Source of the DNA: Terracoccus sp. 273MFTsu3.1 | Lineage (GTDB): Bacteria > Actinomycetota > Actinomycetes > Actinomycetales > Dermatophilaceae | DNA: 64,000 nt | Direction: 5' to 3' | Assembly: GCF_000383675.1 (NCBI RefSeq) | Contig: NZ_KB911821.1 | Coordinates: forward strand, 1 to 64,000 | In this document: positions 30,816 through 30,896 of the stretch, piece by piece | Layout: every line of letters begins with the position of its first letter | Position numbering within the stretch: position 1 is the first letter of the stretch | Notes under the pieces: model-generated | Seen by the model: only the letters and a program-made list of their open reading frames with translations | What the model was told of the DNA's origin: nothing | Database searches by the model: none | Position numbers and translations under genes: made by a program

Positions 30816-30876
30816 GTGTCCGGCCGGACACGGGAAACTCCGCGACGAGGAGGGCCGGGATCAGGCCTCGTCGCGG
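30816..30876 (-). promoter_or_regulatory. Leucine attenuator structures upstream of leuA
   Basis: On the minus strand, the last codons of the leader peptide form one arm of an 11-bp hairpin (30866-30876 with 30840-30850, 15-base loop). A perfect 16-base palindrome GTGTCCGGCCGGACAC follows at 30816-30831. A ribosome stalled on the Leu codons would disturb the first hairpin and change folding downstream. The exact terminator and antiterminator cannot be settled without folding. Confidence 0.65.
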
Positions 30877-30896
30877 CAGAGAAGAAGGAGGCTCAC
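30861..30896 (-). CDS. leuL: leuA leader peptide with four consecutive Leu codons
   Basis: The frame GTG AGC CTC CTT CTT CTC TGC ... GCC TGA encodes MSLLLLCRDEA, 11 residues, ending 75 bases before the leuA ATG. Four adjacent Leu codons in an otherwise meaningless short peptide are the hallmark of leucine attenuation, and two of them are CTT, which is rare in this GC-rich genome. Low leucyl-tRNA should stall ribosomes here. No ribosome site is obvious, so translation may be leaderless from a nearby transcription start. Confidence 0.85.
   Translation of the reverse strand: MSLLLLCRDEA

Follow-up and report, generated by a model that had tools for sequence, protein, structure and literature searches.

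How actinobacteria control their leucine genes has been unsettled since reports of 1999-2005 described leaders unlike classic attenuators, and the question is raised again by a short reading frame upstream of leuA in Terracoccus sp. 273MFTsu3.1. The window, i.e. the whole stretch of DNA that was analysed, comprises 64,000 nucleotides. Seliverstov et al. 2005 (PMC1262725) described a LEU element that precedes leuA in most Actinobacteria and recognised in it a leader peptide, a pseudoknot and a base stem; they left the mechanism open and favoured a protein ligand. They also cite Streptomyces coelicolor mutations (Craster 1999) that do not fit classical attenuation. The leader of the window belongs to this published element, with which it shares the Leu-run leader peptide and the pseudoknot; the base stem between the Leu codons and the leuA Shine-Dalgarno region occurs in its predicted fold, while covariation for it is strong in two other groups and not in the family of the window. 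The leuA element itself is thus not new. We propose, with moderate confidence, that this member of the LEU-element family works as a ribosome-gauge switch, which would respond to leucine and control the start of leuA translation. The features concerned are the following.

29028-30785, minus strand: leuA, 2-isopropylmalate synthase, the putative regulated gene (TIGR00970, E 1e-256)
30793-30802, minus strand: segment 4, leuA Shine-Dalgarno region GACGAGAGAG (swap tests; state folding)
30816-30831, minus strand: self-complementary sequence GTGTCCGGCCGGACAC, which contains segment d (inverted repeat, swap test)
30820-30825, minus strand: segment d, GGCCGG, candidate 3' half of the pseudoknot (swap test)
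30840-30850, minus strand: segment 3, hairpin arm b CCTCGTCGCGG, predicted to pair with arm a or with the leuA Shine-Dalgarno region (inverted repeat, covariation, swap tests)
30853-30858, minus strand: loop segment c, CCGGCC, candidate 5' half of the pseudoknot (swap test)
30861-30905, minus strand: leader peptide gene MRAVSLLLLCRDEA, GTG...TGA, 14 residues, probably leaderless (sequence and comparison of relatives)
30866-30876, minus strand: segment 2, hairpin arm a CCGCGACGAGG, within the leader gene (alignment of 67 sequences)
30879-30890, minus strand: segment 1, Leu codons CTC CTT CTT CTC, with the leuA Shine-Dalgarno region as a possible partner (predicted fold)
30894-30896, minus strand: internal in-frame GTG, taken as the start (MSLLLLCRDEA) in an earlier note on this DNA (read from the sequence)
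30912-30917, minus strand: -10 hexamer TACGGT, 6 nt before the leader start (TANNNT spacing among leaders)
30936-30941, minus strand: -35-like hexamer TGGACG, 18 nt from the -10 hexamer (read from the sequence only)

The leader gene and its distribution

The four consecutive Leu codons and their overlap with a hairpin arm before leuA, both pointed out in the earlier note, are borne out. When the upstream region was dinucleotide-shuffled 5000 times, no ORF with LLLL arose (LLL in 23 of 5000), and LLLL is unique to this ORF among the 553 short ORFs of the window (8-40 aa, distinct stops). An 11-bp perfect inverted repeat, 30840-30850 / 30866-30876, overlaps the last codons of the leader gene. 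From 30896 on the minus strand, the frame reads GTG AGC CTC CTT CTT CTC TGC CGC GAC GAG GCC TGA, with its stop codon at 30863-30861 (-). This 11-residue frame stands, whereas its start was probably placed three residues too far downstream. The GTG at 30905, nine bases upstream of 30896, is the likelier start, because the TACGGT hexamer ends 6 nt before it.

A sigma-70 consensus scan detected no promoter at the leader. In 102 of 122 usable leaders, a TANNNT motif precedes some in-frame leader start by 5-7 nt (6 nt in 85, 7 nt in 16 and 5 nt in one), as compared with 4 of 1403 start codons further upstream, these controls being counted singly while leaders often have at least two candidate starts. 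This spacing places the start of transcription at or beside the leader start codon, and the leader gene is therefore apparently leaderless. LeuL1 of Streptomyces lividans, MRFGLLLLSCRGEGL, shares this peptide layout before leuA and is presented in PMC8079986 as leaderless and as lacking a typical Rho-independent terminator. Leu-rich leaders before leuA are also described as putative attenuator leaders for Corynebacterium glutamicum (cg4015, PMC4046766) and C. diphtheriae (PMC5784534).

The rarity of CTT, another claim of the earlier note, is confirmed: this codon accounts for 201 of the 430 Leu codons (47%) that make up the leader runs and for 111 of 4149 in leuA coding stretches (2.7%). The other Leu codons of the runs are CTC (172), CTG (52) and TTG (5), a synonymous variation that is partly by construction, as our leader parser demanded Leu. 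The last Leu codon is CTT in 107 of 123 leaders, which creates a CUCCUU-like sequence. The CTT enrichment thus fits both a rare-codon sensor and an anti-Shine-Dalgarno sequence. After the Leu run, the commonest peptide endings are SCRGEA, CRDEA, SCRDES, RCRDEA, RCRGEA and RCRGGA.

Conservation of the Leu run and hairpin in relatives, the lack of which would have refuted the earlier note, was found before leuA at 127 of 130 loci. These loci comprise 50, including that of the window, and 80 named records, and represent 127 distinct upstream regions, many of them near-identical; for the first group, upstream regions were taken from 50 of the 55 genomes with leuA, leaving out G037, G041, G045, G053 and G056. 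At 123 loci the element was parsed directly, and 122 of these have at least 10 of the 11 hairpin pairs. A covariance model, R1, recovered it at L024, L035, L036 and L076, and neither parser nor model found an element before leuA at L047, L051 and L098. R1 was built from 67 leaders, those retained in alignment A1 out of 82 listed, with L040 and L077 excluded beforehand and Arthrobacter under-represented. At E 0.001, it matched 140 of 148 Actinomycetes genomes and 80 of 82 genera; in a phylum-wide draw it matched 29 of 198 genomes at E 0.01, and two genomes outside the class have the element before leuA (L133, L135). Ten of these 29, the weak matches L151-L160, were taken as chance, with no leuA or leuB at those loci, and so was the match L171. 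Two genomes contain two leuA-like genes, each preceded by a LEU-type element (L138/L161 in G106, L145/L170 in G237).

As for the surroundings of the leader, the LeuA protein of the window is 96% identical to that of URHB0013, the nearest named record, by which the window would appear to belong to Intrasporangiaceae. The 460-aa gene further upstream (window 30990-32372, minus strand) has no Pfam or NCBIfam match. An Rfam scan of the whole window yielded a tRNA at 8316-8388 as its sole family match, and a scan of the leader alone gave two matches, both below the gathering threshold.

Pairings of the hairpin, the Leu codons and the Shine-Dalgarno region

Segments 2 and 3 form the most conspicuous structure. 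Taken by itself, the hairpin is predicted to fold more stably than shuffled versions (z -3.3). The folding energy of the whole leader is not better than that of shuffles, and it was dropped as evidence. In the alignment of 67 sequences, 98.6% of the hairpin cells are paired, five of the 11 pairs show changes on both sides, and such changes amount to 34 cells, compared with 7.0 in shuffles; further pair types are not above shuffles in these 67 sequences. A variable leader codon, GAC, GGC or AGC, is answered in arm b by GTC, GCC or GCT, respectively, or by a G-U wobble. As the codon change alters the peptide and is yet matched in arm b, RNA pairing is what is preserved there.

Other pairings were assessed by swap tests, in which partners were exchanged within clades among 115 distinct leaders; clade membership was set manually on the basis of record names and family labels, which for some MAGs is an assumption. 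In the pairing-example set, seven leaders with implausible leuA starts and one whose hairpin scored low had been dropped, and leuA starts were re-derived for the later pairing tests, that of L032 being set by hand. The within-clade swaps replaced pairing tests without clade control, in which two intended controls had given z 2.7 and 6.6, the latter overlapping the Shine-Dalgarno region in short leaders.

In the swap tests, the 2:3 hairpin has a z of 6.7. Pairing between arm b and the leuA Shine-Dalgarno region (3:4) has a z of 5.3, with a mean longest helix of 4.85 for own and 4.54 for swapped partners; by clade, z is 4.3 in the family of the window, 2.9 in Microbacteriaceae and 2.1 in the Cellulomonas/Demequina group. 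In the window, CTCGTC of arm b (30844-30849) complements GACGAG (30797-30802) of the Shine-Dalgarno region. The partners are CTCGCC and GGCGAG in L015, L017 and L020, CTCGCT and AGCGAG in L046, L089 and L122, and CCTCAC and GTGAGG in L028. In a motif table for this pairing, GACGA accompanies GTC-type arms in 40 of 70 cases (p 9e-8), while the association is not significant for the GCC type (5 of 20, p 0.09) and the GCT type (5 of 14, p 0.18).

The Leu codons may also pair with the Shine-Dalgarno region (1:4). For this pairing, z is 4.6 overall, 4.5 in the Cellulomonas/Demequina group and 3.6 in Microbacteriaceae, and perfect helices of 9-10 bp are found in L066, L078, L086, L090 and L095. Covariation of 1:4 is absent in the family of the window (z 0.8). 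The predicted fold of the window's whole leader pairs the Leu codons at 30879-30889 with 30790-30802 of the Shine-Dalgarno region. In Micrococcaceae, the swap tests gave neither a 1:4 nor a 3:4 signal. The candidate pseudoknot between the loop and downstream sequences reaches z 3.2 overall and 2.7 in the family of the window; its downstream half is also part of the self-complementary hairpin in the window.

Overall, controls pairing other parts of the leader with the Shine-Dalgarno region gave z 0.4 for arm a, 1.1 for the loop and 1.7 for the linker. The corresponding values in the family of the window are higher (linker 3.2, loop 2.2), and relatedness may therefore inflate the 3:4 signal there, unless the linker extends the 3:4 helix. 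Taken with this caution, the swap tests speak for a leuA Shine-Dalgarno region that is sequestered, which would be achieved by arm b in the family of the window and by the Leu codons in two other groups.

Ribosome positions, translational control and alternative mechanisms

The leader peptide and the ribosome-mediated control that the earlier note had proposed are supported. The gap between arm b and the last sense codon, the one held in the P site when the ribosome terminates, has a median of 16 nt and falls within 12-20 nt for 103 of the 109 distinct leaders, although this constancy mostly reflects a constant loop, as the stop lies at least 8 nt beyond arm a in just 17 leaders. Seven leaders have their stop 14 nt past arm a; their loops are longer, 29 nt on average as against 16, and arm b remains near 18 nt from the last sense codon. 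The spacing is broken in six of the 109 leaders (L075, L077, L092, L118, L119 and L129), four of which are from Micrococcaceae. The first Leu codon is 14 nt (69 leaders) or 17 nt (40 leaders) from arm a. The leading edge of the ribosome is some 15-16 nt away from the P-site codon, counted from its first base. Given these values, arm a would be just clear of a ribosome that has stalled at the first Leu codon, and arm b just clear of one that has reached the stop codon.

Folding of the different ribosome states weakly backs sequestration of the Shine-Dalgarno region. For 114 leaders, its predicted mean unpaired probability is 0.49 in the stalled state, 0.467 in the terminating state and 0.327 without ribosome (0.66, 0.53 and 0.23 in the window), and the stalled value exceeds the terminating value in 64 of the 114 (p 0.03). 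For 57 leaders, it is 0.361 for the free leader, 0.407 for the free leader with a shuffled Leu-run segment and 0.517 for the stalled state; the real free leader lies below its Leu-run-shuffled counterpart in 34 of 57 (p 0.04). As the shuffled leader still gives 0.407, much of the contrast between the stalled and ribosome-free states comes from the extra RNA.

Control at the level of translation is the likeliest reading, and we infer its ON and OFF steps as follows. Judging from the promoter spacing, transcription would start at or beside the leader GTG, and ribosomes would load on the leaderless 14-codon gene. When Leu-tRNA is scarce, the ribosome would stall with its A site on the first Leu codon and cover the Leu run (segment 1). 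The free arm a could then pair with arm b (2:3), which would leave the leuA Shine-Dalgarno region open and leuA ON. When Leu-tRNA is plentiful, the ribosome would reach the stop codon and cover arm a and the loop. Arm b, thus freed, would pair with the Shine-Dalgarno region (3:4) and switch leuA OFF. After release of the ribosome, the Leu codons may pair with the Shine-Dalgarno region (1:4) around the hairpin and pseudoknot, which would also be an OFF state. The scheme draws on what the comparison of leader sequences brings out, namely the Leu run, the covarying 2:3 pairing, the 3:4 pairing in the family of the window and the 1:4 pairing in other families, and also a weaker pseudoknot signal, the promoter spacing and the spacings from Leu run to arm a and from stop to arm b.

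Classic leu and trp attenuators of enterobacteria have the same segment order, 1-2-3-4, and likewise a leader peptide that contains much of the regulated amino acid and at which the ribosome can stall. Unlike in those systems, segment 4 here is the Shine-Dalgarno region of the gene rather than a terminator arm with a U-tract. The earlier note's view that this is 'classic' terminator/antiterminator attenuation is not supported, as there is no U-tract and the pairings in competition with the hairpin engage the Shine-Dalgarno region of leuA. None of 123 leaders has more than four consecutive T in the 20 nt downstream of the hairpin, and by a laxer count, at least five T in an 8-nt window, 25 of 123 qualify. 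A scan for intrinsic terminators before leuA found none, which is a weak test, as it also missed a hairpin followed by U7 in front of ilvB (G000:C2:343033-344733) of the same genome. That ilvB leader (L242, about 3375-3470, minus strand) can be read as MARLLVLP, followed by the hairpin with U7, and looks like a classic attenuator.

Transcription attenuation could nevertheless operate at leuA if Rho replaced the intrinsic terminator, with the ribosome setting termination versus read-through. A leader peptide followed by mutually exclusive hairpins is the classic layout for such a mechanism, the same genome has the hairpin and U7 of the ilvB leader, the empty terminator scan counts for little, and Rho was suggested for terminator-less cys leaders of Mycobacterium (Seliverstov 2005, PMC1262725). 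We nevertheless consider it unlikely: T runs are short, and among the sequences that compete with the hairpin in the swap tests is the leuA Shine-Dalgarno region, for which a terminator model has no need. The 2005 proposal that a regulatory protein, with the helicase-like ML1624 orthologs as candidates, binds the pseudoknot and that the leader peptide is secondary agrees with the pseudoknot z of 3.2 and with the Leu-codon mutations reported as non-classical (via PMC1262725). However, a pure protein site would need neither the Leu run nor the promoter-to-start and stop-to-arm-b spacings that are kept in most leaders, nor the switch to Val, Ile and Leu codons in leaders associated with leuB, and we find this explanation quite improbable.

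It might also be argued that the Leu run is merely an anti-Shine-Dalgarno sequence (CUCCUU) in an untranslated frame, as the strong enrichment of CTT and its prevalence as last Leu codon would suggest. The promoter-to-start spacing, the frame and the stop position are conserved, however, the Leu codons vary synonymously, with the reservation on construction made above, and the S. lividans leuA leader is described in PMC8079986 as transcribed leaderless, all of which makes an untranslated frame very improbable indeed. To return to translational control by a ribosome-gauged leader, Leu codons that serve at once as sensor and as anti-Shine-Dalgarno sequence would explain the non-classical mutants, as a mutation of the Leu codons would hit both functions.

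Elements before leuB and leuC and a candidate microprotein

R1 also matched a second place in the same genome, G000:C2:337074-337156 (minus strand, E 1.1e-4), where a leader, MTRQVVLIPSRGESR, occurs with the same hairpin. Downstream are a 26-residue ORF, MSEDAKAARQALQESMDLRDQGHTED, and then leuB, whose identity was confirmed.

G000:C2:336934-337011 (locus L211/L162), minus strand: microprotein gene MSEDAKAARQALQESMDLRDQGHTED, between the LEU-type element with Val/Ile/Leu leader and leuB

Leaders of leuB-type elements carry Val, Ile and Leu codons, as in MRFVLILRCRDGA, MLWSVRILSCRDGAR and MRSVFVLIDCRGEA. In 13 loci, most of them of this second family, Rfam found no element. The microprotein family, of 20-45 aa with the core A-x-Q-E-x-M-D-x-R-D, has no Pfam or NCBIfam match. 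It was matched in 29 of 58 relatives (E up to 0.025), in 10 of 197 genomes of the class (E 0.05) and in 26 of 149 genomes of the order, about half of the latter being just weak matches inside long frames. Among 36 loci with the microprotein core, a leader and hairpin are present in the stretch scanned at 24, the element lies further upstream at L237 and L240, and no LEU-type element was seen at ten. Seven further leuB loci have a larger ORF in front of leuB, of 32-45 aa, and four of these end in DRRDNGGETGH. Pairwise DNA differences between 30 distinct cores number 433, 514 and 1811 at codon positions 1, 2 and 3, a sign of selection at the protein level.

Sixty-one further element loci, at 60 distinct places, comprise 49 before leuA, seven before leuB, four before leuC-like genes and one without a gene; many were picked as second copies, and in a few no leader fitted the pattern. 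In family f19 genomes, the element directly precedes a leuC-like gene (L279, L280, L281 and L282). The gene of L280 is leuC by TIGR00170, and the other three are leuC-like by the resemblance of their first residues.

These reuses before leuC and leuB suggest a leucine regulon and single out a microprotein as a candidate. It is tempting to see in the element a class-wide ribosome-gauge switch of the leucine/branched-chain regulon, in which the leader codons would set the amino acid that is sensed, the stop codon and loop would be spaced to the ribosome footprint, and the first gene controlled before leuB would be the microprotein of 20-45 residues. We hold this wider reading tentatively and lean slightly to doubt. 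The text of PMC1262725 on the LEU element does not contain 'leuB', 'leuC' or 'leaderless', whereas we find elements before leuC, and before leuB with the microprotein. The pairing of arm b with the Shine-Dalgarno region, the ribosome-sized spacings and the leaderless start also go beyond that text, although its Figures 5-8 may include some of them. Our literature search, in which subscription journals were largely outside the scope, found no published text on the arm b pairing or the ribosome spacing and no report of the element before leuB or leuC.

A small hairpin, GCGG-[AU]GAYC-CCGC, is present upstream of the microprotein at L204, L212, L220 and L222, even where there is no LEU-type hairpin. 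From the GCGG-GAYC-CCGC motif, a T-box was considered for this second element; no Rfam match was obtained. In some relatives, the microprotein gene follows ilvC (confirmed at L139) or a gene resembling serA.
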